Of a stretch of 28,604 nucleotides of DNA, positions 1 through 27,327 are shown in pieces. The notes under the pieces were generated by a model, which was given only the letters and a program-made list of their open reading frames with translations, was not told the DNA's origin and did no database searches. The stretch's first letter is position 1. Each line of letters starts with the position of its first letter. This stretch comes from a virus. Where the stretch lies: the IMG/VR virus record IMGVR_UViG_3300023257_000090, positions 1 through 28,604 of that record; one strand, 5' to 3'. Made by a program: the position numbers and the translations under genes.

Positions 1-653
1 ATCCCAATTTATTTAAACCAGGCAAAAAGAAAACAGACATTTTTACTTTCCTATGCAATAAAGGATTCAGAGGATTAGAAGATCGTGGGGGAATCCAATA
101 TGCGATTAAGGCATTCATAGAAGAATTCAAATTCGGTGAAGCACAAATGATATTAAAGATTAATCCGGCATACCCAATCGGAGATATGAATCAACACCTG
201 AAAGATCTCGGAGTAAAAGAAGATTCACCAAAGATTGGAGTCTGTGCAGACAATATGAAATATGAAGATCTGCCTAACTTATACAATGATTGTGACGTAT
301 TCGTAGCTCCAACAAGAGCAGAAGCGTTTAATATCCCATGTTTAGAAGCATTGTCTTGCGGGAAACCAGTGATTACTTCGAACTTCGGAGGACAAATAGA
401 CTTCTGTAATGATAAGAATGGATGGATAATTGGTGGAGAACTTAAAACAGTGGAGCATGAACTGATGTACGAAGAAGTAAAATGGTTAACCCCAGACATA
501 ACAGAATTGAGAAAAGCTATGAGAGAAGCATTTAATGATTTAGGAAACAAAGGAAACGTAGCAAGAAAAGATGCAGTAGAAAGAACATGGGAGAATACAG
601 CCAAGAAGGTTGCAAAGATAGTCCAGGACCAAGTTGGCGGTGATTCTGGATAA
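1..653 (+). CDS. GT4-type glycosyltransferase, C-terminal part (5' end outside window)
   Basis: The reading frame is open from base 3 through the ATG at 147, so the gene starts before the window and 147 is an internal Met. What remains is the nucleotide-sugar-binding Rossmann half of a GT-B fold enzyme of the GT4 (glycosyl transferases group 1) family. The family signature E-x7-E is visible as EAFNIPCLE, followed by the usual SCGKPVITSNFGG stretch and a short helical tail. Such enzymes transfer a sugar from an activated donor to a lipid, glycan or protein. Here it could modify the host surface, virion proteins or viral DNA; the sequence does not decide. It is separated from the next gene by about 100 bases with a promoter, so it belongs to an upstream transcription unit. 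The family call is secure; the acceptor is unknown. Confidence 0.88.
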   Translation, partial: PNLFKPGKKKTDIFTFLCNKGFRGLEDRGGIQYAIKAFIEEFKFGEAQMILKINPAYPIGDMNQHLKDLGVKEDSPKIGVCADNMKYEDLPNLYNDCDVFVAPTRAEAFNIPCLEALSCGKPVITSNFGGQIDFCNDKNGWIIGGELKTVEHELMYEEVKWLTPDITELRKAMREAFNDLGNKGNVARKDAVERTWENTAKKVAKIVQDQVGGDSG

Positions 654-712
654 TTTCTTAACTCTAACGGGTTTTTCATCCGACCAACTATTATGTTTGA
701 TAGTTTAATTAA

Positions 713-756
713 TAGAAACATTTAAAAAGGTTAAATACATTAATTAATCAAGTAAA
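713..756 (+). promoter_or_regulatory. Archaeal TATA promoter for the TM2-gene operon
   Basis: The TATA-like box ATTTAAAAAGG (720-730) lies in an AT-rich gap after the glycosyltransferase gene. Its centre is about 33 bases before the ATG at 757. With the usual 25-27 base spacing, transcription would start near 750, giving a leader of only a few bases. Unlike the later promoters in the window it lacks the upstream AAGTATAAAA element. Confidence 0.55.
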
Positions 757-987
757 ATGGCATACCAAACAATAACCTCAGACAAGGAAAAACGTACAGC
801 CTTAAAACTGTGTTTGATAGGTTTGTTGGGTTTGGGCGGTTTGCATAGGTTCTACGTCGGAAAGATTGGATCTGGTCTATTGTACTTGGTAACTTTCGGC
901 TTTTGTTGGATCGGAACATTAGTAGACCTATTGCAAATAAGCCTTGGATCTTTTAAAGACAACGTCGGAGCACCGTTAAGAGAATAA
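757..987 (+). CDS. TM2-domain membrane protein
   Basis: This 76-residue protein is almost entirely a TM2 domain: a short charged N-terminus, a first hydrophobic helix (about residues 17-28), the family hallmark GLHRFYVGKIGSG, and a second hydrophobic helix with WIGTLVDLLQI. TM2 proteins sit in the cytoplasmic membrane as two-helix hairpins; their molecular function is poorly defined. It is the first gene behind its own promoter, and its stop codon overlaps the next ATG by one base (TAATG), so the following genes are probably translated from the same message. A role in remodelling the host membrane or in superinfection exclusion is possible but only inferred. Confidence 0.85.
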   Translation: MAYQTITSDKEKRTALKLCLIGLLGLGGLHRFYVGKIGSGLLYLVTFGFCWIGTLVDLLQISLGSFKDNVGAPLRE

Positions 988-1220
988 TGGGAAGAAAAAG
1001 AATAGATCCTATGAGAAGGATCACACAAAGAAGTATCGGCTTGGAACTTAGACAAATTCTTTTCCTTGCTAAATACGATGGTCAAACAAAAGACGTAGAC
1101 GGAAGAAGGATACCAATAATCCAAGTGGATAAATGTTTTAGGGATACCCTTGACGAACAAATAAAAGAGATTGATGGTGAGAATTCAGAATTTTTAAGAA
1201 AAGATGAAGATAATAACTGA
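987..1220 (+). CDS. Small hypothetical protein
   Basis: A 77-residue protein with a basic N-terminus (MGRKRIDPMRR) and an acidic C-terminus. I do not recognise a family. The start is supported by the one-base overlap with the stop of the TM2 gene. It has no membrane segment or metal-binding cysteines. The mix of a basic arm and a charged helix-rich body could suit a small DNA- or RNA-binding protein, but nothing in the sequence proves this. Confidence 0.6.
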   Translation: MGRKRIDPMRRITQRSIGLELRQILFLAKYDGQTKDVDGRRIPIIQVDKCFRDTLDEQIKEIDGENSEFLRKDEDNN

Positions 1221-1416
1221 AAAACAATTAGAGGGCATAAGAAAGATTATGATAGAGAAAGATATTTTTATCCTCCGCTCAATGAATGAAATTAGAAGGG
1301 CATTAAATCTTCTTCGAGTTGCACAAGATAACGTAGATTTTCTGTTGGGCATTCCTGAAAAAGTAGAGAGAATCACAAGACAAGAAATGATATTAAACAT
1401 AGAGGAACAATTATGA
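1204..1416 (+). CDS. Small hypothetical helical protein
   Basis: A 70-residue, highly charged protein predicted to be mostly helical, with no recognised domain. Its ATG lies 17 bases inside the previous gene, and its end overlaps the next gene by four bases (ATGA), a pattern of translational coupling that supports it as a real gene. It contains one possible helix-turn-helix-like stretch (NEIRRALNLLRVAQDNVDFL), but this is too weak for a DNA-binding call. Confidence 0.55.
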   Translation: MKIITEKQLEGIRKIMIEKDIFILRSMNEIRRALNLLRVAQDNVDFLLGIPEKVERITRQEMILNIEEQL

Positions 1417-1712
1417 GAGAACTAACTGAAGAAGAAGCAAAAGCAACAAAGAAAGGGATTGAATTATTAGAGAAACAAATCAAAGAAGCACAAGAGGCCC
1501 AAGTATACGCAACCAAAAAGATGAAAGCAATGGAACAGGCCTGGGTATTCGAAGACTATTCAAAACCAATAGAAAGACGTAGAACAAGAGAAAATGCAAA
1601 TCGAACAATAGATCAGGCTAAAAAGGACATAGAAGAGATCACAGAGAAAGTTAAACAATTAAACAAACAATTAAAAGAAGGGGTTGAGGTAAGAAAACCC
1701 ACTGGAGTTTAA
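1413..1712 (+). CDS. Coiled-coil hypothetical protein
   Basis: A 99-residue protein rich in Glu, Lys, Ala and Gln, with heptad-like spacing over residues 1-45 and 65-92 and an aromatic break in the middle (AWVFEDYSKP). It probably forms a helical bundle or coiled coil. It overlaps the previous gene by four bases (ATGA) and directly abuts the variable-protein gene at 1713. DGR accessory proteins (Avd) are small helical bundles, so the position next to a DGR-like target is suggestive, but length and sequence do not allow that call. Confidence 0.6.
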   Translation: MRELTEEEAKATKKGIELLEKQIKEAQEAQVYATKKMKAMEQAWVFEDYSKPIERRRTRENANRTIDQAKKDIEEITEKVKQLNKQLKEGVEVRKPTGV

Positions 1713-2150
1713 ATGAAACTTAAAACAATAAAACAATTAGAAAAACAAAAACTTGAAATAGATGAACAAATACTTGAAATAGATAAACAAATTGAAGAAC
1801 TAAAAAACAAATCAACTTGGAGAAAGTTTAAATGTCTTCCAAATGTAGAACTATCAAATATTCAAGATTGGGATGAACCTTATGACAAAATTGTGATACC
1901 AAAAGGATGTAGATTAATGGAGGCGTGGGAATTTGCTAAACTAATTGAGAGTGAAGAAAGTGATGATTTTTTAGGAAAGTATAAAGGGAAATTTTCTTAT
2001 TTTTGGTTAAACCAATCAAAATATTGTAAAACAAATAACTTTTCCTTCCGTGTGTGTCTCGACAGTGGCTCGTTCTGGGGTGTCGACTACGACAGTCTTG
2101 GGGACTCCCTCGAGGGCGGTCGGGTAGTTTTCGTGAGGGATTTGAAATGA
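1713..2150 (+). CDS. Probable DGR target protein with C-terminal variable C-type-lectin-like domain
   Basis: A 145-residue protein. Residues 1-32 form a coiled coil (repeats of LEI-DEQ and EIDKQIEEL). Residues 35-109 contain DKIVIPKGCRLMEAWEFAKLI, which resembles the IPKGWRLPT-x-E-E pattern of FISUMP/formylglycine-generating-enzyme-like folds often diversified by DGRs. Residues 110-145 are rich in Ser, Gly, Asp, Tyr and Trp and end in GGRVVFVRD, a typical close of such ligand-binding domains. The coding DNA of this last part is GC-rich and adenine-poor, unlike the rest of the gene (see the variable-region entry). The protein probably binds a variable ligand; the coiled coil would oligomerise it or attach it to another virion or surface protein. 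There is no signal peptide. The fold is inferred from motifs and the DGR link from base composition. Confidence 0.7.
   Translation: MKLKTIKQLEKQKLEIDEQILEIDKQIEELKNKSTWRKFKCLPNVELSNIQDWDEPYDKIVIPKGCRLMEAWEFAKLIESEESDDFLGKYKGKFSYFWLNQSKYCKTNNFSFRVCLDSGSFWGVDYDSLGDSLEGGRVVFVRDLK
2040..2150 (+). other. Putative DGR variable region (VR)
   Basis: Base composition changes abruptly at about 2040. In 2041-2120, 48 of 80 bases are G or C and only 8 are A, whereas in 1981-2040 only 12 of 60 are G or C. None of the 27 codons from 2040 to 2120 ends in A, and 22 end in C or T. This is what adenine-directed mutagenic homing makes from template AAC/AAT codons. The stretch ends at the stop codon, where DGR variable regions normally lie. 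I found no template repeat or reverse transcriptase gene in the window. Confidence 0.65.
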
Positions 2151-2335
2151 GTTTATTAGAAGACTTAGAAAAATCAGCACAAAGACTAAGAAGAAGACAA
2201 GACAGAGAGGAACGAATAAAAAACAGAGGACCTGGCATGATAGTATTGATAGGATTCATGCAGACATTATTCTACTTTGTAATCACATTAGGGTTAGCAG
2301 CATTAATTAAATTTTTATGGAGTTATCTATGGTAG
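2147..2335 (+). CDS. Small single-pass membrane protein
   Basis: A 62-residue protein. The frame is open further upstream, from 2054, but that part only reads through the variable region in another frame. The ATG at 2147 overlaps the preceding stop as ATGA and is the likely start. Residues 1-28 are charged and strongly basic (SAQRLRRRQDREERIKNR). Residues 31-58 are a continuous hydrophobic helix (IVLIGFMQTLFYFVITLGLAAL) that should cross the membrane, with the basic N-terminus probably inside. Its position directly after the variable protein suggests it could anchor it or act with it, which is inference only. Confidence 0.65.
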   Translation: MSLLEDLEKSAQRLRRRQDREERIKNRGPGMIVLIGFMQTLFYFVITLGLAALIKFLWSYLW

Positions 2336-2826
2336 ACGAAGTTAAACCGTTAATTCGAGTTCAAACACCAGATGAGAAAGCAGATTTTATTGATATCTCA
2401 AGAAGACACGCAACACCAGAAATGGTACTACGGGCGCAGATAGCAGAAGCAGAACAAAAGGCAAATGCACCAAAGATACCGTTCGACAAGAAACTACCAT
2501 ATCCTGGAACAGCAGTTATTGAAGATTTCAATAAAGCAGCTAAAATGGCAGAATTGTCAGCAGTAGGATATGTTGGAAATAAGAAGGTGTCTGAAACAAC
2601 AAGAGAGAATCTAAGAAAAGAAGCATTAAAGAACATGGACTGGACAAAATATACAGATCCTAAGAACTTTTTGTTAATAGACTCATCTGAAAGAATTGAC
2701 GAACATCTAACCAAAACCAACCCCGGAAAGTCGATCTTTGTTAAGAAGAGATCATATACTTTCAAGGGACATGTTCAAAAATATGTGGTGATGGAAGATG
2801 CAGCAAGTGCAATTAATCGAGCATAA
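2329..2826 (+). CDS. Hypothetical protein (about 165 aa)
   Basis: A soluble protein with no recognised domain. Two in-frame ATGs exist, 2317 and 2329; I prefer 2329 because it overlaps the previous gene by only seven bases. The sequence mixes charged helices with a C-terminal part that looks beta-rich (KSIFVKKRSYTFKGHVQKYVVME). There are no membrane segments or cysteine motifs. It ends the accessory operon: after it comes a foldable non-coding gap of about 115 bases. Confidence 0.6.
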   Translation: MVDEVKPLIRVQTPDEKADFIDISRRHATPEMVLRAQIAEAEQKANAPKIPFDKKLPYPGTAVIEDFNKAAKMAELSAVGYVGNKKVSETTRENLRKEALKNMDWTKYTDPKNFLLIDSSERIDEHLTKTNPGKSIFVKKRSYTFKGHVQKYVVMEDAASAINRA

Positions 2827-2847
2827 TCATACTTTGCGAAGTGCGGG

Positions 2848-2855
2848 ATTTATAA
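2848..2855 (+). promoter_or_regulatory. Possible TATA box for the packaging operon
   Basis: ATTTATAA lies in the only non-coding gap before the packaging genes. The flanking bases are unusually GC-rich (GCGGG before, CCCC after) and can pair with each other, so this is a weaker match than the other promoters. A start about 26 bases downstream would fall near 2878, just before the hairpin at 2885-2920, leaving a leader of about 63 bases. Confidence 0.35.
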
Positions 2856-2864
2856 CCCCAAGAG

Positions 2865-2928
2865 TCCCTGGTCTAATGCGTAAGTCCAGTTGAGCAGATT
2901 TATCTTCTCAAACTACTGGAGCCAGGGA
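2865..2928 (+). ncRNA. Structured RNA element in the leader of the methyltransferase operon
   Basis: Nested complementary segments are visible by eye. TCCCTGG (2865-2871) pairs with CCAGGGA (2922-2928). TCCAG (2885-2889) pairs with CTGGA (2916-2920). TTGAG (2890-2894) pairs with CTCAA (2907-2911), and AGA/TCT close a four-base loop TTTA (2899-2902), with a one-base C/T mismatch and a bulge ACTA on the 3' side. It is more GC-rich than its surroundings. It could be a translational control element, a small RNA or a processing site. It is not a tRNA by any arm I can draw. Confidence 0.5.
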
Positions 2929-2940
2929 ACCTTTATTAAA

Positions 2941-4317
2941 ATGGAAAAATTAGAAATAGAGTACATACCAATAGCGGAGATAGTTCCTTACAAGAACAAT
3001 CCGAGAAAGAATGACAAAGCAGTAGAAGTAGTAGCAAAAAGTATTAAAGAATTCGGTTTCAAGAACCCAATAATTCTGGATAAGAAGAACGAAATAGTTT
3101 GTGGACATACAAGATTAAAAGCAATACCTAAAGCAAAGGAGCTAATATTAGAAGAACTAAAGGTGCAAAGGATAGAATTAGATAACGCAAAAATCAACAA
3201 GCCCGAAAGAATAGAAGATATTAATAACGTTATTGAACAATTAGAAAATAATCTTGCCGGAATACAAGAAGTTCCTGTAATTTGGGTTGACGATCTAACA
3301 GATGAACAAATAAAAGCATTCCGAATCATGGACAACAAATCAATAGAGTACGCGAGATGGGACTTTGACTTATTAAAAGAAGAGTTCGAATCAATGACCA
3401 ACTTAGAATTCACCGGATTCACAGAAGCAGAAAGAGAGAAGATCTTAAATCCAGATGACAAGTTCAGCGTAGGAGACAAAGAACCCAAATACAAAATAGA
3501 AACCGGAGAAGTCTGGCAATTAGGCAAACATCGATTAATATGCGGAGACTCAACACGGGAAGATACATACCTTAAATTAATACCAAGCGGCACCGACATC
3601 CAATGCGTATTCACAGACCCACCATATGGAGTAAGTTATTCAGGAACAAACAACCCAAACGGAAGAGAGTGGAAAGTGATTGAAGGAGACGATTTAAGGG
3701 GAGACAAACTATACGATTTAATAAAGGAATCCTTCACACACATTAATGCCCACTTAGTAAAGAACGGAGCAATCTATGTCTTCCATGCATCGTCTAATCA
3801 AATCATATTCGAGAAGGCATTAAACACAGCCAACTTCCAAGTAAAACAGCAATTAATATGGCACAAGCACCATATCCTTGGACACTCACACTATCACTGG
3901 TGTCATGAGCCTTTATTTTATGGATCAAGAATAAACGAGAACCCAGACTTTTTCGGCACAAGATGCAATAAGACCACATTAACAGAGATAGATCCAGATG
4001 CAATGGACCTGGAACAATTAAGGAAGTTCGTCAAGAAGATCAAGAAACATAGCACAGTATGGGAGATCAAGAAGGATTCAACCAAAGATTACATCCATCC
4101 AACTCAGAAACCAACCAAATTGGCGATTAGGGCCATCGTGAACAGTTCAAAGGTAGGTGATGGAGTATTAGACCCCTTCGCAGGGAGTGGAAGCACGTTG
4201 ATGGCCTGTGAGGAAAAAGGGAGAGTTTGTTATACGATTGAATTAGATCCGGTATTTTGTAGTCATATTATAGAAAGATGGGAAAAACTAACAGGAAAAA
4301 CCGCAGAAAAGATGTAA
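2941..4317 (+). CDS. ParB-like nuclease/DNA methyltransferase fusion
   Basis: This 458-residue protein has a ParB/sulfiredoxin-like N-terminal domain (residues about 4-110, with the typical NPRKND and VCGHTRLKA motifs) and a C-terminal amino-methyltransferase. The catalytic motif DPPYG is near residue 226 and the AdoMet-binding motif DPFAGSGST near residue 411; DPPY before FxGxG gives the beta-class order. DPPY usually indicates N6-adenine methylation. Such fusions are frequent in tailed viruses, where they modify viral DNA against host restriction or mark it. The frame is open from 2890, but 2890-2940 overlaps the structured element and ATG 2941 begins the conserved domain. The 3' end overlaps the small terminase gene by 40 bases. 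Confidence 0.88.
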   Translation: MEKLEIEYIPIAEIVPYKNNPRKNDKAVEVVAKSIKEFGFKNPIILDKKNEIVCGHTRLKAIPKAKELILEELKVQRIELDNAKINKPERIEDINNVIEQLENNLAGIQEVPVIWVDDLTDEQIKAFRIMDNKSIEYARWDFDLLKEEFESMTNLEFTGFTEAEREKILNPDDKFSVGDKEPKYKIETGEVWQLGKHRLICGDSTREDTYLKLIPSGTDIQCVFTDPPYGVSYSGTNNPNGREWKVIEGDDLRGDKLYDLIKESFTHINAHLVKNGAIYVFHASSNQIIFEKALNTANFQVKQQLIWHKHHILGHSHYHWCHEPLFYGSRINENPDFFGTRCNKTTLTEIDPDAMDLEQLRKFVKKIKKHSTVWEIKKDSTKDYIHPTQKPTKLAIRAIVNSSKVGDGVLDPFAGSGSTLMACEEKGRVCYTIELDPVFCSHIIERWEKLTGKTAEKM

Positions 4318-4658
4318 CGAAATGTAACAGATTAAAGCCCAAACAGAAGGCAATGATTGAATCAATGAAAGCAACGCTTGGGATTGTAACTGCATCTTGT
4401 AAGCAAGTAGGAATAGAAAGAGTCACACATTATCGGTGGCTGAAAGAGAATCCAGAGTATGCTAAGGGAATAAATGAATCTGAACTTGATTTAAAAGACT
4501 TTGCAGAAGGGGCCCTCCTCCAATTATTACATGAAAAGAACCCCATGATTGTCTGGAACGTCAACAAAACCCGAAACAAAGACAGAGGATACATGGAAAA
4601 ACAGGAAATAGAACATACTGGTCAGGCATTTAAATTAATAATAGAGAATCCGGACTAA
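4278..4658 (+). CDS. Probable terminase small subunit
   Basis: A 126-residue basic protein. Residues about 20-55 form a helix-turn-helix (TASCKQVGIERVTHYRWLKE) of the type that opens many small terminases, followed by an acidic helical segment (NESELDLKDFAEGALLQLL) and a C-terminal part (NVNKTRNKDRGYMEK) typical of phage small terminase/phBC6A51-like proteins. It would bind the packaging site and recruit the large subunit. Its start lies inside the preceding methyltransferase gene and its stop overlaps the next ATG by one base. The call rests on the HTH, size and neighbourhood, since the large terminase is the next gene but one. Confidence 0.7.
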   Translation: MGKTNRKNRRKDVTKCNRLKPKQKAMIESMKATLGIVTASCKQVGIERVTHYRWLKENPEYAKGINESELDLKDFAEGALLQLLHEKNPMIVWNVNKTRNKDRGYMEKQEIEHTGQAFKLIIENPD

Positions 4659-5875
4659 TGAATAAAATAATACAAGGTGAATGTTTAGAAGAACTAAAGA
4701 AACTTCCAGAGAAATCAGTAAATATGTGCATGACTTCTCCACTCTACTGGGCATTAAGGGATTATGGAACTGCAACTTGGGAAGGTGGAGATGATAATTG
4801 TGACCATAAAGAAGCTAAAGAGAAGTCAAGATATGATTATGATTTAAGTAAAGCACAAACAGGAACACATAAGGGTGCTAAGGAAGGAACAGACCAAGCA
4901 AAATGGAAAGACAAATGCCCTACTTGTGGGGCTATTAAAGTAGATAAACAATTAGGATTAGAACCAACCTTTGACGAATATATAAATAAGTTGTGTGATA
5001 TTTTTGATGAAGTAAAAAGAGTTCTAAGAGATGATGGAACTTGTTGGGTTAATTTGGGTGATACTTATTTTGGTTCTGGAAAGGGTGCTGGTGGAGACCC
5101 AGCTAAATGTAAAGAGTCTTACACTATGCCGACAGATTGGAAAAGACCAAGTAGAGATGAATTCACAAAGGCAGGGATAAAAAAGAATTGTTTAATTTGT
5201 GGCAAAGAGTTTTTAGGAAAAGAGAATTCACAATTTTGTTCTAAAAAATGTCTAAACAAAAAAGGGAATGATTTTAGAAGCCAAAATAGACAACTACCAG
5301 ATAAAACATTAACCTTGATTCCAATGCGTTTCGCAATAGAAATGGTTAATCGTGGTTGGATATTGAGAAACACAATCATCTGGCATAAACCAAATTGTAT
5401 GCCGAGTTCTGTTAAGGATAGATTCACAGTAGACTTTGAATACCTTTTTTTCTTTAGTAAGAAAAAGAAATACTATTTTGAAACCCAAAGAGAACCACAC
5501 CAAACAGAAGAATGGAAAACAAGAAATATGAATAAAAGAAAAAAGAACGATAGTAATCCCCAATATGGAAAACATTCTCACGGACCTCAAGATTATCATC
5601 CTCAAGGACGTAACAAAAGAACAACATGGGCTATCTGCCCTAAGCCATTCAAGGAAGCACACTTTGCAGTTTATCCAGAAGAGCTTTGTGAAACTCCAAT
5701 TAAAGCTGGGTGTCCTGAAGGTGGAATAGTATTAGACCCATTCGCAGGAGCAGGAACTACTTGCTTGGTGGCGTTGAAACAAAACAAGAAGTTTTTAGGG
5801 ATTGAGTTGAATCCAGAATACATTGAGATAATAAATAAAAGATTAAAACCTCATTTAGAACAGGGGAAGCTATGA
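4658..5875 (+). CDS. DNA methyltransferase (N4/N6 amino type) with zinc-finger insertion
   Basis: A 405-residue enzyme of the (S/D)PPY amino-methyltransferase group. The catalytic motif at residues 26-31 reads TSPLYW, where the family normally has TSPPYW; the following ALRDYG agrees with the family. The AdoMet motif DPFAGAGTTC is near residue 358, followed by GIELNPEYI. Two cysteine clusters are present: CPTC at about residue 87, and CLICGKEF followed by FCSKKC at about residues 177-200, which looks like an inserted zinc finger. The second proline of the catalytic motif is replaced by leucine, so activity is uncertain. It is coupled to both terminase genes by one- and four-base overlaps, suggesting that methylation and packaging are expressed together. 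Confidence 0.85.
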   Translation: MNKIIQGECLEELKKLPEKSVNMCMTSPLYWALRDYGTATWEGGDDNCDHKEAKEKSRYDYDLSKAQTGTHKGAKEGTDQAKWKDKCPTCGAIKVDKQLGLEPTFDEYINKLCDIFDEVKRVLRDDGTCWVNLGDTYFGSGKGAGGDPAKCKESYTMPTDWKRPSRDEFTKAGIKKNCLICGKEFLGKENSQFCSKKCLNKKGNDFRSQNRQLPDKTLTLIPMRFAIEMVNRGWILRNTIIWHKPNCMPSSVKDRFTVDFEYLFFFSKKKKYYFETQREPHQTEEWKTRNMNKRKKNDSNPQYGKHSHGPQDYHPQGRNKRTTWAICPKPFKEAHFAVYPEELCETPIKAGCPEGGIVLDPFAGAGTTCLVALKQNKKFLGIELNPEYIEIINKRLKPHLEQGKL

Positions 5876-7212
5876 ATGAAATTCGATGGAAGCCAAGTAG
5901 AAGACAGAAAGAGGCCCTCAAATACTTATTAGATCATGAAACTACTGAATTATTCTATGGTGGCGGTGCCGGAGGTGGAAAATCATACTTAGGTTGTGCT
6001 TGGACAATACTCTCTTGTTTACAATATCCTGGAATAAGAGGTCTAATGGGTCGAGCAGTGTTAAAATCATTAAAGGAATCAACACTATTGACATTCTTTG
6101 AGATCTGCAGAGATTGGGGATTAAAGAAAGATAAAGATTTCAAGTACAATTCAATTGAAGGAACAATCAAGTTCTCTAATGGATCGGAAGTTTATTTGAA
6201 AGATTTATTCGCTTATCCGAGTGATCCAGAGTTCGATAGTTTAGGTAGTACTGAGTATACCTTCGCTTTTTTGGATGAGGTGTCCCAGATATCGGAAAAG
6301 GCAAAAAACATCGTTATGAGCCGTCTGCGGTTCAAATTAGATGCATATGACTTGATACCTAAGCTATTAATGGCAAGCAATCCATCTAAGAACTTTGCAT
6401 ATAGAGAATACTGGCAACCATGGAATGAGAATAAACTGCCAGCTTTCAGAAAATTCGTACCTGCATTGGTAGATGACAACCCATTCATCAGTGATTACTA
6501 TAAAGAGAATCTAAAGAAATTAGATAAGAACTCAAGAGAAAGACTTCTTTATGGGAACTGGAACTATGATGACGATCCGAGTAGGCTCTTTGATTACGAT
6601 AAGATGATGCAAGTTTTTAATCTTGGATATGAAAGAAAGCCCCAGGAAAGAAGGTATATCAGTTGTGATGTAGCAAGATTCGGGCCAGATGAAACAGTAA
6701 TAATCGTATGGCGAGACTTTTGTATCTATAAAATTTATCACTTCGGCAAGAGATCAACAAAAGAAACTGCGGACTTTCTTAAAAAGTTAGTAGATATAGA
6801 GGGTGTACCGAGGAGCAATATAGTAGTAGATGAGGACGGGGTAGGGGGCGGAGTTGTAGATCAGGTACAAGGTTGTAAAGGATTCATAAACAATTCTCAA
6901 GCAAAGAGCACAAATACTATCTATAAGAAGAACTATGCAAACCTCAAAACAGAATGTTATTTCTTATTAGCCAAGTACATTGATGAGGCAAGAATAGGTT
7001 GCGAACCAATAGACATAGACGTAAAGAAGAGGATAATTGAGGACTTAGAACAGATCAAGTGGAAGGATCCAGAGAAGGATAATAAGATATCTATCACTCC
7101 GAAGGAAGAGATTAAAGAGAATCTCGGTAAATCACCGGATTTCGGGGATGCTTTGATGATGAGGATGGTGTTTGCTCAGAGAGAAGGGACCTTTGGATAT
7201 ATTGCAGTTTGA
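5872..7212 (+). CDS. terL: Terminase large subunit
   Basis: A 446-residue packaging motor with both domains. Walker A is GGGAGGGKS (residues 30-38), and Walker B with the catalytic acid is in FAFLDEVSQ (about residues 131-139). The C-terminal RNase H-like nuclease shows its acidic residues in ISCDVARFGPDET (about 263-275), VVDEDGVGGG (about 319) and SPDFGDAL (about 421). It cuts concatemers and pumps DNA into the prohead through the portal. The start overlaps the methyltransferase by four bases (ATGA). The length is normal for the family, and no inteins or breaks are seen. Confidence 0.95.
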   Translation: MNEIRWKPSRRQKEALKYLLDHETTELFYGGGAGGGKSYLGCAWTILSCLQYPGIRGLMGRAVLKSLKESTLLTFFEICRDWGLKKDKDFKYNSIEGTIKFSNGSEVYLKDLFAYPSDPEFDSLGSTEYTFAFLDEVSQISEKAKNIVMSRLRFKLDAYDLIPKLLMASNPSKNFAYREYWQPWNENKLPAFRKFVPALVDDNPFISDYYKENLKKLDKNSRERLLYGNWNYDDDPSRLFDYDKMMQVFNLGYERKPQERRYISCDVARFGPDETVIIVWRDFCIYKIYHFGKRSTKETADFLKKLVDIEGVPRSNIVVDEDGVGGGVVDQVQGCKGFINNSQAKSTNTIYKKNYANLKTECYFLLAKYIDEARIGCEPIDIDVKKRIIEDLEQIKWKDPEKDNKISITPKEEIKENLGKSPDFGDALMMRMVFAQREGTFGYIAV

Positions 7213-7264
7213 AGTATAAAATCAGTGAATCAATATTTAAAAAAGAGTTTTAACAACAATTTAT
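7212..7264 (+). promoter_or_regulatory. Bipartite archaeal promoter for the head operon (leaderless)
   Basis: AAGTATAAAA (7212-7221) overlaps the terminase stop codon. Thirteen bases on follows ATTTAAAAAA (7234-7243), the TATA box, preceded by AATCAAT. The TATA centre is about 26 bases before the portal ATG at 7265, so the message should start at or beside the start codon, and there is no Shine-Dalgarno sequence. The same two-part design recurs at 12108, 16260, 26054 and 27275. Confidence 0.75.
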
Positions 7265-9226
7265 ATGACAAAGGGCTATATTGCACTTTCAAAGGCACAA
7301 AAGCATATCTCTATTACTGAACAGTTTAAAGGAGAGACCAACGATGAAGAAGTAAGATTCCCCAAGTCACTGGGGGTTAAGCATCCGGTGGATTTCAAAG
7401 TAATGGAAGCATGGTACAATGGACATCCATTCGTTAAGGGAGCAATTGATAAACACGTTGATTCAATCGTAGCAGATTTCACAGTTGATTCAAAAGATGA
7501 CAAAAGTCTAACATTAATTGAGAGCTTTATTGCTAACACTAATTTTTTAGTATTCTTAAGACAATGGATTTTAAATGCCCTTATCTCTGGAAACGGATTT
7601 ATGGAATTAGATCTGGAAAATGAAAAAGTGAGAGTATTGGACAGTAAAACAATGTACGTAAAGCGTAATAGTAAGGGGAAAGTAATTGGTTATAATCAAT
7701 ATGTTGGAGAGATCAAGTCGTTTAAGAAAGACAGAAAAGAGATGATCCCATTCGGACCAGGAAATATTGCACACTTCCCAGTAAATACCTTAGCCGATAA
7801 TGCCTATGGGTTGGGATTAATCTGGCCAAATAGAAATGCATTGGACATGCTGGCTCAAAATGAATTGGACATGCATAAGTTAGTAAGCAGAAAAGCCGGA
7901 GCACCGTACCACGTAAAGATTGGACAACCAGGAGAGGCAGCACAGAAAGAAGACATAGATGACTTCAATTCAAAGTTAGAATATTTAAATAGTAGAACAG
8001 AATGGGTAACAGACGGAAATGTAGAGATCAAAGGAGTAGACTTCGGAGATTTAGGGAAGAACTTCGCGACATCATTAGAACATGATATCCAAGAATTAGT
8101 ATTTGGTTTTCAAGTGCCAGCAACATTAATGGGTGTGATGAATGTGCCTGAAGGATTAGCTAAAGTACAGTTAGAAGCATTCCAAAGAAGGATTAAAAGT
8201 TTACAGGAGTCAGTAGAAAAAGTAATAGAGGAAAAGATATTCAAACAAATCTTAAATGCAAATAAGTTAGATACAGATATAGAAATCACTTGGAACCTCC
8301 CCGGTGAAACAGAGATCAACAATCGTATAGAGAGATTAACTAATTTATTGGGCGGAACAGTAGCTATTTCAGAGAACATGAAGAGAATGATAGAAAAAGA
8401 ACTTGCTCAAGTATTAGACTTTCAAGATGCAGAGAAATATCTCAATGAACCAGACGAAGAGTTGAAAGGATTAGATGATGACCAAGCTAAAACAGATCCA
8501 ATAGTTGATCCACTAAAACCAAAGCCAGAGAATCCAGAACGTAAGAAAGAAGAAAATATCAAACAACCAGAAGTTCCAGGGGAAAAACCTGCAGCCAAAG
8601 AAGAACATGAACACGTATTGACTGAAACAGGAATGTGCGGATGTGGATGCGGGCAACAATTAACAGAAGAAGAGGTAGCAGAATATACGGTGGAAGAATG
8701 GTGCCAGTTACAAGAGGTGGCTGGATTTAATTATGTAGATTATTTAGTAAACATCCTCGGAAAGGCAGATACAGAGAAGTTCACAGACTTATTGGCCACA
8801 ACAGAGCAACAATTAGATCTTGGATTATTAAGTCAAACAGATATAGAAAAACTAAGAGTAGTATTAAAGGATGGCTTCCAAAAGAACAAAACAATCAAAC
8901 AAATAGAGTCAGACATAGGGAAGTTCATTAATCTTAAAGATAGATACGTAATTAATGAGCATGGTGATAAGGTGCTTAAAGCAAGAGCAGAATCAAGGGC
9001 AAACAATATAGCAAGAACAGAAACTGTCAGATTAGCGAATAAGGGATTACTAAAGACATACAATGAATCAGGGATTAAAAAAGTTAGATTTCTTGCTGCA
9101 CTATCAGAGAGAACTTGCCCGCAATGTAGTGCATTAAATGGTGAAGTCTTTGAAATAAATGAGGCAGAAGATTTAATCCCAGTGCATTCGTCTTGTAGAT
9201 GTACTTGGATGTCTGTTCTTGATTGA
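7265..9226 (+). CDS. Portal protein fused to MuF-type minor head protein
   Basis: A 653-residue protein. Residues 1 to about 400 are an HK97-type portal (VKHPVDFKVMEAWYNGHPFVKG at the N-terminus and a core ending in LEAFQRRIKSLQESVEKVIEE). A hydrophilic, proline-rich linker follows, then a cysteine cluster (MCGCGCGQQL, about residues 457-466). The last 80 residues are a phage Mu F/SPP1 gp7-like domain: ARTETVRLANKG, then FLAALSERTCPQCSALNGEVF and HSSCRC. The portal forms the ring at the packaging vertex; MuF proteins lie inside the head and may be ejected with DNA. Fused portal-MuF proteins occur in other viruses but are less common than separate genes. Its own promoter suggests a leaderless message. 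Confidence 0.9.
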   Translation: MTKGYIALSKAQKHISITEQFKGETNDEEVRFPKSLGVKHPVDFKVMEAWYNGHPFVKGAIDKHVDSIVADFTVDSKDDKSLTLIESFIANTNFLVFLRQWILNALISGNGFMELDLENEKVRVLDSKTMYVKRNSKGKVIGYNQYVGEIKSFKKDRKEMIPFGPGNIAHFPVNTLADNAYGLGLIWPNRNALDMLAQNELDMHKLVSRKAGAPYHVKIGQPGEAAQKEDIDDFNSKLEYLNSRTEWVTDGNVEIKGVDFGDLGKNFATSLEHDIQELVFGFQVPATLMGVMNVPEGLAKVQLEAFQRRIKSLQESVEKVIEEKIFKQILNANKLDTDIEITWNLPGETEINNRIERLTNLLGGTVAISENMKRMIEKELAQVLDFQDAEKYLNEPDEELKGLDDDQAKTDPIVDPLKPKPENPERKKEENIKQPEVPGEKPAAKEEHEHVLTETGMCGCGCGQQLTEEEVAEYTVEEWCQLQEVAGFNYVDYLVNILGKADTEKFTDLLATTEQQLDLGLLSQTDIEKLRVVLKDGFQKNKTIKQIESDIGKFINLKDRYVINEHGDKVLKARAESRANNIARTETVRLANKGLLKTYNESGIKKVRFLAALSERTCPQCSALNGEVFEINEAEDLIPVHSSCRCTWMSVLD

Positions 9227-10368
9227 TGGGACAAATTACTAATTCAACGATGGGGAGCCCAATCGCTATAGTTAACCATCAAGGAAGATTATTGGTTGAT
9301 ATTGGAAGCTCAATAAATATCGGTTCGGTATCCGCGCAAGTGGACTCAATATATGTTCAAAGCGGTGCGATGTACATCCAAAGCGGGACAGTAACAGTAG
9401 ATAATTTATATGCTGGAAGTGAATCTTGGGTAAAAGAAGTTCCAAAGACAGAGGTTTATACTTCTGGAATAGTTAGTGTTAGTGGAGTTGTAGGTGTGGA
9501 GTTTAGTAATGATTACGTTAATGTTATCCAATCAGGAACCCAGTGGGCAGTTAGCGGAGTGGTTACAGCTAATACTGGTTTATACGCAGGAAGCGAGACA
9601 ACAATTCTAAACTTTGGGGACTTAGGAAGCAGCAGAGTAGTAATTGGAAGTGTTGCTATAACAGGAAGTGTTCAAACATTCGGAACATCAATAACTGTTG
9701 GAAGCGAGTCTTGGATTAAGAACTTTGATGACTTGGGTAGTTCAACAGTAGTGACTAACTTCAGTGATTTGGGCAGTACCAGAGTAGTGCAAGGAAATGT
9801 AGACGTAGATAATTTATATGCGGGAAGTGAATATACAATACTCAATTTCGGTGATCTCGGCTCAAATAGTGTTATAACTAATTTCGGGACACTTGGTTCC
9901 TCGAGAGTTATTGAGAACCTTGGAGTTTTAGGATCATCAAGAGTTATAACAAATGTGGTTGGTGTAACCCCAAGCGGAACTTTTACAGTAGCAACAGATA
10001 ATTATCTCGGAAGCGAGGTATATCAAGGAACAAGCCCATTGGTGGTTCTCGGAAGCGTGAATATAGACAATGCAACGACCATAGGGAGTATAGGCAACCA
10101 AATAGTAACTGGTAGCGTAAACGTGACCAATTTTGCACAAGTGGGCAGTTTAACAACACAGGGGGTTGCAATATCAGGAACTCCAGAAGTATTCGTTGAT
10201 ACAAGGGAAAATACTTCTAATTCTTACAATCCAGACATGATATTAGTTTATTCTGGTGGGGTCATAGGTAGCATTTATAAGAACACCGGAACGGGAAGTA
10301 TAATTCAAGTCCTTTCTTATGATGCAAGCGATAATTTAACAAACGTCAGTCCGTGGGGGGCAGTATAA
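9226..10368 (+). CDS. Repetitive beta-rich fibre-like structural protein
   Basis: A 380-residue protein made of short Gly, Ser, Val and Thr-rich beta strands. A unit of about 13 residues, NF-x-DLGSS-x-VV, recurs at least six times in the middle (NFGDLGSSRVV, NFDDLGSSTVV, NFSDLGSTRVV, NFGDLGSNSVI, NFGTLGSSRVI, NLGVLGSSRVI). The unit LYAGSE also recurs. This suggests a beta-helix or triple-beta fibre shaft. The gene at 27419 shares the segment SA-x-VD-x-(I/V)Y(V/I)QSG and one copy of the unit, so the two are paralogous in part. The ATG at 9226 overlaps the portal stop by one base. Its place in the head operon suggests a capsid fibre, but a tail fibre cannot be excluded. Confidence 0.7.
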   Translation: MGQITNSTMGSPIAIVNHQGRLLVDIGSSINIGSVSAQVDSIYVQSGAMYIQSGTVTVDNLYAGSESWVKEVPKTEVYTSGIVSVSGVVGVEFSNDYVNVIQSGTQWAVSGVVTANTGLYAGSETTILNFGDLGSSRVVIGSVAITGSVQTFGTSITVGSESWIKNFDDLGSSTVVTNFSDLGSTRVVQGNVDVDNLYAGSEYTILNFGDLGSNSVITNFGTLGSSRVIENLGVLGSSRVITNVVGVTPSGTFTVATDNYLGSEVYQGTSPLVVLGSVNIDNATTIGSIGNQIVTGSVNVTNFAQVGSLTTQGVAISGTPEVFVDTRENTSNSYNPDMILVYSGGVIGSIYKNTGTGSIIQVLSYDASDNLTNVSPWGAV

Positions 10369-11228
10369 TGGGAGACGTAGCAACATTGAATCCTTTTACA
10401 GGGGACTTACAATTGATTAATCGGGCTACTGGTGATACAGGATATACTAACTTAACAGAGTTTGTAGACCAAACAGCTTGGAGATTATTTTATTCTAATG
10501 CAGATGGAGATGTTACAGAACTTGTGTTTGGAGATTCAGATAAAGTTTTAACTTCTAACGGAGCAACATCAGCACCAACTTGGGAAACTCCAAGTGGTGG
10601 TGCACAAACACCTTGGACGGCAAACATAGAAGGGGCAGAATATGCTCTTGGAAGTGTTGGGGACATAGACCACGACGACGCAACAGCTTCAGATTGGAAT
10701 TTAATAAACAAAGACCAAGACAAAGATATTAATTTAAAAATTAATGATGGAGGAACAGAGAGGACAGCAATACAAATTCATGGAGATAGCGGAATAATAT
10801 CACACCCTCGACAAAGTTTTGTGGTTGCTTACATAGGAGCAAGGCAAACTATTGCCAACGCTACAAATACAACCTTGAATTTTGACACAGAAGAAGTTGA
10901 TGTTTTAGGAGAATTTAACACAACAACCAAAACATTTACAGCGATAGAAGCAGGAGTTTATAATGTTACATGCACAGCATCTTGGCTGAATGTAAATGTA
11001 AATAAAACATATTTTATTCAGATCCGTTCTTCATCAGCCCCAACGCTAGCAAGATTTTCAAATACTACGGTAGCTCAAATACTTTTAGGGCAAATGAACT
11101 CTATTAATGTAAAACTAGCAGCAGGGGGTACAATATATGTTCAGGGTTATCAGAACAGCGGTGGAAACGAAATTGTTGAGGGCGGATCGTCATGGGAGAG
11201 TACTTTAACCATAACAAAGGTATCATAA
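10368..11228 (+). CDS. Virion protein with C1q-like C-terminal domain
   Basis: A 286-residue protein. The N-terminal 85 residues are a linker-like region common in phage fibres (FYSNADGDVTELVFGDSDKVLTSNG, then a Thr/Pro-rich stretch). The C-terminal 135 residues resemble a C1q/TNF jelly roll: FVVAYIGARQTI, FNTTTKTFTAIEAGVYNVTC, then IYVQGYQNSGG and a closing SSWESTLTITKV. C1q-like domains form trimers and bind ligands at fibre tips. The ATG 10368 overlaps the previous stop by one base; the open frame from GTG 10353 is less likely. Together with the preceding gene it may form a head-attached fibre and its tip. Confidence 0.7.
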   Translation: MGDVATLNPFTGDLQLINRATGDTGYTNLTEFVDQTAWRLFYSNADGDVTELVFGDSDKVLTSNGATSAPTWETPSGGAQTPWTANIEGAEYALGSVGDIDHDDATASDWNLINKDQDKDINLKINDGGTERTAIQIHGDSGIISHPRQSFVVAYIGARQTIANATNTTLNFDTEEVDVLGEFNTTTKTFTAIEAGVYNVTCTASWLNVNVNKTYFIQIRSSSAPTLARFSNTTVAQILLGQMNSINVKLAAGGTIYVQGYQNSGGNEIVEGGSSWESTLTITKVS

Positions 11229-11476
11229 TGAAAATTTTAAAAATAGAAAGCAACAGTATCAATAAAGAAAAAAAGATAGTAATAACTTTGGAAGGTTACC
11301 CACACGCTAAACCTGTATTTCCAGCAGACATATCAGAAGAAGAATTAAAAACAAAATTAGCAGAATGGAAGATAAACCAAGACGAAGTGGATGCTATCAA
11401 TGCTAATGCTGTTGCAGAAAAGGTAGTAGAAAAAGACATTAGTGAATTAAGGGACTTAGAAGGAAAAGAAATATGA
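11228..11476 (+). CDS. Small hypothetical protein
   Basis: An 82-residue acidic protein starting at ATG 11228, which overlaps the C1q gene stop by one base (TAATG). The frame is open from 11192, but that extension would lie inside the C1q gene. The first 40 residues look beta-rich (KILKIESNSINKEKKIVITLEG) and the rest is helical. The family is unknown. By place between fibre and capsid genes it could be a chaperone or minor virion protein, which is not shown by sequence. Confidence 0.6.
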   Translation: MKILKIESNSINKEKKIVITLEGYPHAKPVFPADISEEELKTKLAEWKINQDEVDAINANAVAEKVVEKDISELRDLEGKEI

Positions 11477-11655
11477 AAGAAGAAAGAATAACCATAGAAC
11501 CGAAAGATAAAGAGCTCGGATTAGAGATAATGGAATTTATGAAGGACATAGAAGATATCATGGATGCCGCAAAAAAGGTAAGTCAACCTTATTATAAATT
11601 CGATCCATCAATGTTTTTGATGTGGAGGTTAAATGAAAATAGAAGAAAGGCCTAA
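11473..11655 (+). CDS. Small hypothetical protein
   Basis: A 60-residue charged protein, mostly helical, overlapping the previous gene by four bases (ATGA) and the next by 23. No family is recognised. The C-terminal WRLNENRRKA is basic. The tight overlap on both sides is the main reason to accept it as a gene. Confidence 0.55.
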   Translation: MKEERITIEPKDKELGLEIMEFMKDIEDIMDAAKKVSQPYYKFDPSMFLMWRLNENRRKA

Positions 11656-11785
11656 ATGTGAAAAGCCAGGATGTGAAGAGTATGCCATAGTCTTATGGGG
11701 AGATATGTGGCTTTGCGGGAATCATTTGGTAGAATTGCAAGAGAAATTAAATAAAGAACGGAGGGATATGTTAATACATGGTTAG
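11633..11785 (+). CDS. Zinc-ribbon microprotein (50 aa)
   Basis: A 50-residue reading frame from ATG 11633 to TAG 11785. It holds KCEKPGCEEYAIVL, then LCGNHLVEL, so it has two pairs of likely zinc ligands (C-x4-C and C-x2-H) about 15 residues apart, a compact zinc-ribbon or treble-clef-like knuckle. The remainder is a short basic helix (LQEKLNKERRDML). It overlaps both neighbours in other frames, as is common in this operon. The metal site suggests a nucleic-acid- or protein-binding role. Confidence 0.6.
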   Translation: MKIEERPKCEKPGCEEYAIVLWGDMWLCGNHLVELQEKLNKERRDMLIHG

Positions 11786-12104
11786 GATAATCAAGAAAAC
11801 ACAGCAAAGAGTAGTAACTATGCCGCACATAGGGGATGTTATAGAGTTTTCAAACTCAGGTCACGATGCAGTAGATAAAGAGAGTGTCCCAATTATTGGT
11901 CCCTGGGAAGATACCTTGATAGATGGTGTTACAACTTCTGGCGGACCTCCCAGCAGACAACAACTCATGTGGGGTGGGCACGGAAATAAGCTCCAAGGAA
12001 CAACTGCAGCCTTAATGGGTGCGGAATTAGATAGCTTAAATGTGGTAGGACAACGGAAATCTACGCATAGAAGACGTAAAACAACAGTATCAATTGATAC
12101 ATAG
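11778..12104 (+). CDS. Hypothetical protein (108 aa)
   Basis: A basic protein at both ends (MVRIIKKTQQR at the start, STHRRRKTTV near the end), with a Gly/Pro-rich middle (SGGPPSRQQLMWGGHGNK). No recognised domain and no membrane segment. The start overlaps the zinc-ribbon gene by eight bases; a second in-frame ATG at 11820 is possible. It closes the operon that begins with the portal, as a promoter follows directly. Confidence 0.55.
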   Translation: MVRIIKKTQQRVVTMPHIGDVIEFSNSGHDAVDKESVPIIGPWEDTLIDGVTTSGGPPSRQQLMWGGHGNKLQGTTAALMGAELDSLNVVGQRKSTHRRRKTTVSIDT

Positions 12105-12107
12105 TTA

Positions 12108-12158
12108 TTTTATACTTAGTTTATCAACGTTTAAAAAGCAAAATTGAGTAATTTAACC
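12108..12158 (+). promoter_or_regulatory. Bipartite archaeal promoter for the capsid genes (leaderless)
   Basis: TTTTATACTT (12108-12117) is the reverse complement of the AAGTATAAAA element at other promoters. After an 11-base gap with ATCAAC comes the TATA box GTTTAAAAA (12129-12137). The TATA centre is about 26 bases before ATG 12159, which fits a leaderless message and argues against the in-frame TTG at 12144 as start. Confidence 0.75.
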
Positions 12159-15894: not shown

Positions 15895-16259
15895 GCGTAA
15901 GCATGAGCGTTTTGGGATTGGCGCGGCTTCATTTATATCTTGGCAAGAAAAATAATAACATAGCAGTATTAGAAAAGGCAGGATTGACTAAGGCGGCAGC
16001 ATTCATGCAGAGCGAGGTTAAAGCGAGTATAGCTGGACGAAGAGCCGAACACGTAAGTGTGGATACTGGAAGATTCCTTAATAGTGTTAATTTTCAGGTA
16101 GGTAATGACGATGCTGTTATATTTAGTAACGTCCCTTATGCAGATTTTTTGGAATTTGGTACTACCAGTTTTCAGGCGAGACCGCACTTCAGAAATAGTA
16201 AAGCAAGGAACCAGAAAGAGGCAATAGGGATTATTAACAAGGAGATTAAGAAGGCTTAA
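15891..16259 (+). CDS. HK97 gp10-like tail-completion/neck protein
   Basis: A 122-residue protein with the family pattern: a helix AAAFMQSEVKASIAGR, then VDTGRFLNSVNF, then SNVPYADFLEFGTT followed by RPHFRNS and a C-terminal helix. These proteins sit at the head-tail junction and complete or join the tail. The four-base overlap (ATGA) supports ATG 15891; ATG 15903 in frame is also possible. The stop is directly followed by the promoter of the HNH gene. Confidence 0.8.
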   Translation: MSVSMSVLGLARLHLYLGKKNNNIAVLEKAGLTKAAAFMQSEVKASIAGRRAEHVSVDTGRFLNSVNFQVGNDDAVIFSNVPYADFLEFGTTSFQARPHFRNSKARNQKEAIGIINKEIKKA

Positions 16260-16291
16260 TTTTATACTTGATTAATCAACGTTTAAAAAAC
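16260..16291 (+). promoter_or_regulatory. Bipartite archaeal promoter for the HNH/tail genes
   Basis: TTTTATACTT (16260-16269), the inverted form of the upstream element, is followed after 11 bases by GTTTAAAAAAC (16281-16291). The TATA centre predicts a start near 16311, so the HNH message has a leader of about 44 bases. This promoter lies between neck and tail-terminator genes and may also drive the tail genes downstream. Confidence 0.7.
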
Positions 16292-16308
16292 AAAAAAACA
16301 AAATACTA

Positions 16309-18567: not shown

Positions 18568-21077
18568 TGGTAGATATAGGTGGAGCAATAACGCAAGGAG
18601 CAACAATATCTATTGTCATTAAGGCAATAGATCAATATAGCAAGGCGTTTAAATCAGCGAATATGGCTGTTTCTGCGATGGGTATGGCATTCAAAGCTGG
18701 TGCAATCGCAATAGGTGCCGCTTCAGTTGCGCTTGGAGCTGTTGGGGTAAGTGCAGTTAAAACAGCAGCAAGTTTTGAGACTGCCTTCACGGGCGTAAGG
18801 AAGACATCAGATTTAACAGAACAAGGATTCGAAGAACTACAAAATAGGTTCGAAGAATTAACAAAAGTAACCCCAGTAACATTTGAACAATTATCTGCAA
18901 TAGGTGAAATTGCTGGTCAATTGGGTGTAGAGGGAGTTGATAATTTAGAAAAGTTCACCAAAACGATAGCAGATATCTCAGTAACTACTAATTTAACAGC
19001 AGAGGCGGCAGCTACATCATTCGCAAGGATTGCTAATGTTATGCAAATACCTTTAAGCGAAGTAGACAGAATGGCTTCATCGGTGGTTGATTTAGGTAAT
19101 AATTTCGCCACAACAGAATCAGAGATTACTAATTTTGCAGAAAGAATCGCTGGTGCAGGTAAAATCGCAGGATTTACAACAGACGAGATACTTGCAATAG
19201 GGGCTGCAATGACTTCTGTTGGTGTAGAGGCAGAAGCAGGTGGTACGGCTGTACAGAAAGTACTTCTTGCTATGCAAGAGTCAGTTTCTACAGGCGGAGA
19301 TAAGCTCGATGCATTTGCTGAAACTGCGGGAATGACCTCAGCAGAATTTCAAACAATGTGGGAACAAGACGCATCCGGCGCATTTGCCAGATTTGTTAAT
19401 GGTTTGGGTACTGCAGGAGATCAAGCCTTTGGAATTTTAGATGAACTTGGACTTAAAGATCAGCGTTTAATTAGGTCATTTTTATCTTTGGCCAATGCGG
19501 GTGACTTAGTAAATAGAACATTGACTACTTCTGAAAGTGCATGGTCCTCAAATAGTGCCTTAGTAGAAGAGGCAACAAAGAGATACGATACCTTTGATTC
19601 TAAGATGGCTATGGTTAAAAACCAAATAAGATTAGTATCAGAAGAAATAGGTGTAGCATTCCTCCCGGCATTAGTAGAGCTCGCGGCAACTTTTACTGAA
19701 GAAGTACTTCCAGCATTAGAACCATTAATCCCAAGATTAGTAGAGATATTCACAACAGCGGCAGAACTCGCTTCAGGAGCCTTGCCTATGCTCACAGAGG
19801 GCTTCATATTCTTAGCGGACATATTTCTCAACCAAATAATCCCCGCATTTCAGCCAGTATTAGATATAATAAAAGAATTGGCCAACGATCCATTTTTTAC
19901 AGGGGCAATAACAACAGCCATTGAAGGAATGGCCCCAGTGGTTACTATCCTTGCAGAAGGGTTCGCATCATTGGCAAGAGCAATAGTTCCTTTAATAGAA
20001 CCAGCAGCAGAATTAATACAATTATTTGCAGAGTTATTCGTTGATGTAATAACACAATCCGCACCAATAGTGGTTGACTTACTTCTCGCATTGTCAGAAA
20101 TCTTCAAAGATATCTTCGCAAGGTTAAAACCCTTAATACCAAAGATCATAGAGTTTGCATCACGACTGATAGACAAGATCGTTCCGAGATTACCTAAACT
20201 GGTTGACATATTTTTTAAGTTAGTAGATATCCTCTTTGAATTGTTTGTAGCAGTAGAACCACTCTTAGAACCATTAATGGACATTGCCATACTTCTTGCG
20301 GATTTGTTAATAGATGCTATAGAGCCACTTATCCCATACTTAGAAGATATTGGGGAATTGTTTGCCGATTTGCTCGTGGCTCTAATACCAATCATACCAT
20401 CCATTGCAGAATTGGTTGGGGCTCTTGTTTTTTTAACAGTAAAGATATTGGATGAGTTACTTCCAGCACTTAGTTGGTTAATAGACATTCTTGATGGGCC
20501 GGTAGTTGATGCGATAGTTAAGAATATCGAAACAGTGATAAATTTTGTGAAATGGATAGGAAAAGCCATCGACGCTATCTTTATATTCGATGATTTGTTC
20601 GGAAAATCAAAAAAGAGTGCAGAAAGCGCTGCTTCAGGGATTGATTCTTATACAAGATCACTCAATAATGCGACTTCAGCACAAGATGATTTAATTAGAA
20701 GACAACAGGAAACAATAGATCTTGCGAATCAAACTTCTGATGCTATAAGAGCAGAACCAATAGACCTAACAAGAGATGCTATAGAAAGAGATGATAGAAG
20801 TAGAAACAGAAACAGGAACAATAATCGGTCGGATCCAATAGTTTTAAATGGCCCAAACCAGAATGATGATCCAACAAGATCACCTGTGATAAGACTTAAT
20901 GATTTCATACTCACAAAGAATGGGCAAATCATCGAAACAAATCCGAATGATACTATCTTCGGAATGCAAGGTGGTGGAGCAAACGTGACAGTTAACATAG
21001 ATAGAATATACGGGACAGATCCAGAAGAAATGATGGAAGCATTCGAAAGTAAATTGAGGACTTTAATTCGCGCGTAA
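18567..21077 (+). CDS. Tape measure protein (TP901-like)
   Basis: An 836-residue protein. After a hydrophobic Gly/Ala-rich segment (residues about 30-70) comes the TP901 tape measure core: AASFETAFTGVRKTSDL, VTPVTFEQLSAIGEIAGQLG, and AAMTSVGVEAEAGGTAVQKV (about 70-220). Residues about 360-680 are a long alternation of hydrophobic helices with Leu, Ile, Glu and Pro (for example EPLIPRLVEI and KPLIPKIIEFA), which may insert in the membrane during DNA entry. The C-terminal part is polar. By the usual 0.15 nm per residue the tail would be about 125 nm. The ATG overlaps the chaperone-extension stop. Confidence 0.9.
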   Translation: MVDIGGAITQGATISIVIKAIDQYSKAFKSANMAVSAMGMAFKAGAIAIGAASVALGAVGVSAVKTAASFETAFTGVRKTSDLTEQGFEELQNRFEELTKVTPVTFEQLSAIGEIAGQLGVEGVDNLEKFTKTIADISVTTNLTAEAAATSFARIANVMQIPLSEVDRMASSVVDLGNNFATTESEITNFAERIAGAGKIAGFTTDEILAIGAAMTSVGVEAEAGGTAVQKVLLAMQESVSTGGDKLDAFAETAGMTSAEFQTMWEQDASGAFARFVNGLGTAGDQAFGILDELGLKDQRLIRSFLSLANAGDLVNRTLTTSESAWSSNSALVEEATKRYDTFDSKMAMVKNQIRLVSEEIGVAFLPALVELAATFTEEVLPALEPLIPRLVEIFTTAAELASGALPMLTEGFIFLADIFLNQIIPAFQPVLDIIKELANDPFFTGAITTAIEGMAPVVTILAEGFASLARAIVPLIEPAAELIQLFAELFVDVITQSAPIVVDLLLALSEIFKDIFARLKPLIPKIIEFASRLIDKIVPRLPKLVDIFFKLVDILFELFVAVEPLLEPLMDIAILLADLLIDAIEPLIPYLEDIGELFADLLVALIPIIPSIAELVGALVFLTVKILDELLPALSWLIDILDGPVVDAIVKNIETVINFVKWIGKAIDAIFIFDDLFGKSKKSAESAASGIDSYTRSLNNATSAQDDLIRRQQETIDLANQTSDAIRAEPIDLTRDAIERDDRSRNRNRNNNRSDPIVLNGPNQNDDPTRSPVIRLNDFILTKNGQIIETNPNDTIFGMQGGGANVTVNIDRIYGTDPEEMMEAFESKLRTLIRA

Positions 21078-25704: not shown

Positions 25705-26055
25705 ATGGGAATAACAACAACCGCATTAAACGTAATCGCAGCGAATATGGCTGGCTCAGCCATTCCATCCCATATAGCAATAGGGATAGGAAGTACCGCA
25801 TTCACAAGTGGCGATACGGTACTTGAAAATGAAACAGACCGGAACCAGATAAATGAGTATGATTTAACGGCGAATGAGCAAGTGACTGTCATAGGAAACT
25901 GGGCACCATTAGAAATAAGTGGGACCATCCTAAAAGAATACGGAGTAATGACTGTCGGGAGTTCAATGTTGAATAGGGAAGTTTTAACAGGGAGTTTAGT
26001 GTTCGATGGTGAACAAGAACTTCAGATTCAACAAGTATTTAAATTGTATATTTAA
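25705..26055 (+). CDS. Paralog of the 'MAIGTGS' structural protein
   Basis: A 116-residue protein with a strong AAAGGAGG ribosome-binding site. HIAIGIGSTAFTSGDTVLEN and the closing LFKLY-like strand correspond to those of the 143-residue protein at 21101, so the genes arose by duplication or share a common virion fold. It is probably a tail-tip or baseplate-associated protein. Its stop codon overlaps the upstream element of the next promoter. Confidence 0.6.
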   Translation: MGITTTALNVIAANMAGSAIPSHIAIGIGSTAFTSGDTVLENETDRNQINEYDLTANEQVTVIGNWAPLEISGTILKEYGVMTVGSSMLNREVLTGSLVFDGEQELQIQQVFKLYI

Positions 26056-27307: not shown

Positions 27308-27327
27308 CAAATTTGCGATGTTTATAT

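Follow-up and report, generated by a model that had tools for sequence, protein, structure and literature searches.

The window analysed here is a 28,604-nucleotide stretch of viral DNA (IMG/VR record IMGVR_UViG_3300023257_000090), in which two DNA methyltransferases and the terminase are found downstream of a gene for a small protein with a putative variable region (VR). The features of the locus are as follows:

1413..1712, + strand: upstream ORF encoding a coiled coil, the stop codon of which abuts the ATG of the variable-protein gene
1713..2150, + strand: variable-protein gene, 145 aa, with an N-terminal coiled coil and a domain of about 105 aa, the variable region being at its end
2037..2117, + strand: putative VR of 27 codons, none of which ends in A; the GC maximum of the genome
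2118..2134, + strand: putative IMH-like element GGTCGGGTAGTTTTCGT, identical in a distantly related gene
2147..2335, + strand: small membrane protein (ORF frame 2054-2335, with an ATG at 2147)

The preliminary description had recognised a small coiled-coil protein followed by a membrane protein, and this arrangement is borne out: the coiled coil comprises residues 2-34, which form a helix in the structure model (pLDDT 77-94), and the start codon of the membrane-protein gene at 2147 shares bases with the stop codon of the variable-protein gene, forming an ATGA overlap. The domain of the variable protein terminates in NNFSFRVCLDSGSFWGVDYDSLGDSLEGGRVVFVRDLK. No significant match to this protein was found in Pfam, PHROGs, the PDB or annotated phages, and a family search with the upstream ORF (1413..1712) gave no confident match. 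The structure models, predicted with two sequences, are of very low confidence (pLDDT 53 and 46), and fold searches with them returned no match that would speak for or against a C-type lectin fold; nor was the variable protein matched in a sequence search against solved structures.

The GC content rises from 20% in 1980-2039 to 53-62% in 2040-2129, in agreement with the sharp switch near 2040, from 20% to about 60%, that had been reported previously. The highest-GC 81-base stretch of the genome (2044-2124) has 64% GC, as against 38% overall, and when each 81-base window across the 28,604-base record is compared, the region 2039-2125 holds both the top GC count (52/81) and the lowest number of A residues on the + strand (8); both extremes persist across the complete 41,998-base contig described below. 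A run of 30 codons, none of which ends in A, extends from AAT (2034) to CGG (2121-2123). This is the longest such run in the genome, in which 41% of codons end in A and the runner-up is 22 codons long. Conditioned on the encoded amino acids and the codon usage of the genome, the 29 codons examined should include 8.7 that end in A, and none is observed (log10 P(0) = -5.5). Hence the claims that adenine is nearly absent and that no codon in 2040-2120 ends in A both hold, the run in fact spanning 2034-2123. Within the 27 codons of 2037-2117, A occurs three times at the first codon position, seven times at the second and never at the third, with all bases being represented at positions one and two. 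A C-terminal VR having such template-typical codons, free of A at third positions, is a trait of DGR targets.

The window is contained in IMGVR_UViG_3300022890_000048 (G001), a contig of 41,998 bases with which it agrees base for base over bases 1-12,147. The same 81 bases are found at both ends of G001, and when these are joined a 154-codon ORF, apparently part of a sugar-transferase-like gene, spans the joint; G001 is consequently taken to be complete, and either circular or circularly permuted. Near the contig ends there is a cluster of glycosyltransferase-like genes and an epimerase-like gene (L005 6210-10994; window 147-653), accompanied by a ClpP-like protease (L005 10991-11557); all of these names were assigned by eye, except that of the window gene at 147-653.

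An RVT_1 search of the window, G001, G002 and G003 (the last being a second virus, described below) detected no reverse transcriptase, and in G001 and G003 a scan for RT-like motif pairs was empty and the bAvd accessory gene (PF22296) had no match. An adenine-tolerant scan of both strands of the complete G001, and of G003, found no template repeat (TR): even with template adenines free to mismatch, the best candidate in G001 for 2040-2120 has 15 non-adenine mismatches in 81 positions. For G003, these absences of RT, Avd and template apply to a 66,996-base record in which a terminal repeat was looked for and none found. No inverted repeat of at least 8 bases, corresponding to the hairpin that accompanies the VR in some DGRs, is present in 2010-2300. 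The absence of a template and a reverse transcriptase, first noted for the window, thus extends to the complete genome. With neither RT nor repeat in G001, the finding that the preliminary description had itself set as its criterion, a DGR carried in cis by the virus is refuted; Avd is lacking too. That the virus does have its own RT and template, overlooked through assembly or extreme divergence, we consider very improbable: the record carries no completeness value, and the searches consisted of profiles and motifs only, but the ends of the genome join to give an ORF that reads through the joint, and the best candidate left by the scan of both strands is far from a template.

Scanning for the conserved end of the protein identified one relative beyond the window's own virus: L025, in IMGVR_UViG_3300037722_000435 (G003; 66,996 bases, 33% GC). 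The L025 protein (L025:7974-8312) is 112 aa long, lacks the coiled coil, and is 44% identical to the window protein over residues 44-145 (E = 4e-24). The GGRVVFVRD end, described as conserved from the window alone, appears as NGRVVFVKD in this one distant relative. The two viruses are not close, as their large terminases match different families and tblastx matches are found in few genes only. The homologous end of the G003 gene is nonetheless the most GC-rich 81-base window of its genome, at 67%, and likewise contains a run of 30 codons without an A-ending codon (P given the amino acids, 10^-6.5).

In G003 the gene is found on the minus strand, clustered with small ORFs and close to a DNA methyltransferase, whilst the plus strand carries the structural genes. 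The gene that follows begins, in both viruses, inside the stop codon of the variable-protein gene, at an ATGA. Being apart from the structural genes in G003, near methyltransferases and overlapped by the following gene at the ATGA, the gene probably encodes a small binding protein that is not part of the virion, and not a tail fibre. Elsewhere in G003, two similar hairpins, GACATACTCCCACATCATAAATGATGGGGTATC and GACATCCTCTCACACCCTAAAGGGTGGAGTATCC, precede genes (in L028, upstream of 279; in L031, at about 65564 of G003), and these resemble the ends of IS200/IS605-type elements.

The window and L025 genes were aligned without gaps, counting back from the glycine of GRVVFV. Over the framework, 50 codons, they share 59% DNA identity; over the putative VR, 27 codons long in both, this falls to 47%, and only six of the 27 residues (N, C, L, S, L, S) are kept. 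By contrast, 17 of the 18 bases of the six codons that follow the VR are identical, and the 17-base GGTCGGGTAGTTTTCGT is fully so, despite encoded proteins that are just 44% identical. This element contains the rare arginine codon CGG, which accounts for 4% and 1.4% of the arginine codons in the two genomes. The probability of its five codons agreeing through codon usage alone is about 1%, such that its identity is supportive rather than decisive. Judged from the two sequences, the invariant DNA 3' of the VR appears to behave as expected of a homing-initiation site (IMH), and the combination of a conserved framework, a replaced core and invariant downstream DNA, all at the end of a gene, is the layout of a DGR target with its IMH. 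As third positions differ between the two VRs, a single common template did not give rise to both.

We also have to consider a conserved protein tail that is not derived from a DGR, its composition having come through recombination from a GC-rich donor or through selection acting at the start of an overlapping gene. No template is known, as would then be expected, and the probability of about 1% that codon usage by itself makes the five element codons agree is not extremely low. However, no part of the protein is less conserved than the GC-rich one, which lies between conserved blocks in both viruses; the overlapping downstream gene begins only at the stop codon; and the exclusion of A from third positions is shared by the VR of the relative, with all bases being used at the first two positions of the window VR. 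An origin of this kind seems unlikely, whereas a DGR origin of the variable end appears likely.

No difference in the VR is seen between three assemblies of the window virus, which are consensus sequences from one lineage. In one of them, L002, 15 positions within 6.9 kb depart from the window, and these fall in two other genes. As one VR is common to the three assemblies, its current rewriting is unproven, although slow or rare rewriting may be compatible with three consensus sequences from a single lineage. The gene could instead have been captured from a cell or virus with a full DGR, the VR now being a frozen allele that evolves in the ordinary way. Such a fossil would explain both a virus without RT or TR and a VR that is unchanged in three assemblies whilst L002 has accumulated SNPs elsewhere, and it is one of two readings offered for the partial DGRs of nanoarchaea (PMC4372165). 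Yet if nothing rewrote the VR, its codons should have drifted towards ending in A, and thus the persistence of GC-rich, A-free third positions in two AT-rich genomes, whose proteins have diverged to 44% identity, speaks against it, as does the retention of a 17-base element at the DNA level; we regard a fossil as rather doubtful.

Variation of another kind is seen in the gene at 23015-24211, which has an internal 111-base repeat at a spacing of 207 bases, the copies being 75% identical (window 23342-23659; G001 about 24084-24169). The window and G001 are of unequal length at this repeat, and clusters of SNPs between them lie at 22964-23377 and 19679-19886. This gene possibly encodes a tail protein under diversification or recombination. 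Two further proteins (9223-10365 and 27419-28099) have repeated motifs of the kind NFGDLGSSxVVTN / DNLYAGSE, and their genes have in common a DNA segment that is 80% identical (9716-9759 and 27708-27751). An intergenic element of the kind GTATAAAAT...AATCAATATTTAAAAAACAAAA is repeated at 7198-7254, 12107-12143, 16259-16295, 26040-26096 and 27261-27317, and its copies are probably promoters of one family.

Among 2.9 million viral contigs, scans for GRVVFVR[DE], for 17- and 15-base versions of the element and for the patterns FWxxQ...GRV[VIL]F and DFLGxYKG found no relative beyond the window virus and G003. All other matches were due to chance or to unrelated proteins, an example being L027, a GC-rich prophage-like contig. 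Two scans of the GTDB species genomes also found no relative, but the narrowness of the seed patterns used makes this weak evidence of absence from cellular genomes. Of the seed alignments, A1 and A5 include rows that are synthetic, and A4 a modified version of the L025 protein; these steered the choice of patterns only, and the relationship to the window protein was verified for each relative reported. The host may plausibly be an archaeon (DPANN). There is a slight enrichment of TATA-like boxes at archaeal spacing, which precede 2/15 and 5/23 starts, the shuffles giving 0.5 and 1.0; the terminase, however, is best matched by Flavobacteriia phages.

On sequence evidence, the region is best read as an orphan DGR-type VR, probably either written in trans or inherited from such a system. 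Of the original proposal, what is supported is the DGR-type variable region, since an independent relative has the same features, and what falls is a DGR carried by this virus. Our best explanation, in which we have evenly balanced confidence, is that the VR of a DGR target makes up the last third of the gene at 1713-2150, and was written by a DGR elsewhere, with the host as best guess. The virus would retain the target only, consisting of the framework domain, the VR and the invariant homing-initiation element, with neither TR nor RT. Such a DGR would have written the VR, now or in the past, its enzyme making errors at adenines as it copies the TR, and the resulting cDNA homing to the viral gene via the common element at 2118-2134. 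The coincidence of the GC maximum of the genome with this position in both viruses supports such an explanation; counting against it, no TR was found in either G001 or G003, the three assemblies agree in the VR, and a hairpin was looked for beside the VR and not found. The host is the most economical location for the writer, since DPANN archaea are known to have DGRs (PMC4372165, PMC8144416, PMC10907252), but host-encoded writing in trans, taken overall, is something to which we lean slightly less than halfway. More tentative still is the generalisation that viruses carry bare DGR targets to be diversified in trans by a host retroelement during infection; if true, viruses can borrow the hypermutation of their hosts whilst carrying only the landing site.

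Surveys of DGRs begin with the reverse transcriptase and then seek adjacent targets, and the largest of them is, by its own statement, blind to remote targets (PMC8144416). The occurrence of bare targets in a complete virus and a second, unrelated one suggests that they can be found solely through composition and a short invariant DNA element. Similar loci have been described in cells. The partial DGRs of the DUSEL4 Nanoarchaeota (Paul et al. 2015, PMC4372165) also consist of a target, a VR and cis elements without an adjoining RT, and for these the authors weighed remote writing as well as fossils; they differ in belonging to cellular genomes with other DGR cassettes, and in that adenine-directed change is evident, whereas the target described here belongs to the complete genome of a virus and has no known TR. 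In Thiohalocapsa PB-PSB1, VR loci that lack a full DGR are diversified by components which act in trans from other places in that genome (PMC10907252). There, TR, RT and VR are found in one genome, non-adenine sites match and the population varies, whereas the machinery proposed for the window virus would belong to another replicon, and none was found in the viral genomes searched. ANMV-1 resembles the window virus, itself probably archaeal, in being an archaeal virus with a DGR target, but its DGR is complete and apparently active and its target is classed as a C-type lectin (PMC4372165), whilst the window virus has the target only. Finally, the window protein is smaller than the archaeal variable proteins of the AvpA type, has its VR at the very C-terminus and does not match solved structures, but, as in those proteins, a VR near the C-terminus precedes an invariant strand, encoded in the window gene by the putative IMH (PMC5006420).
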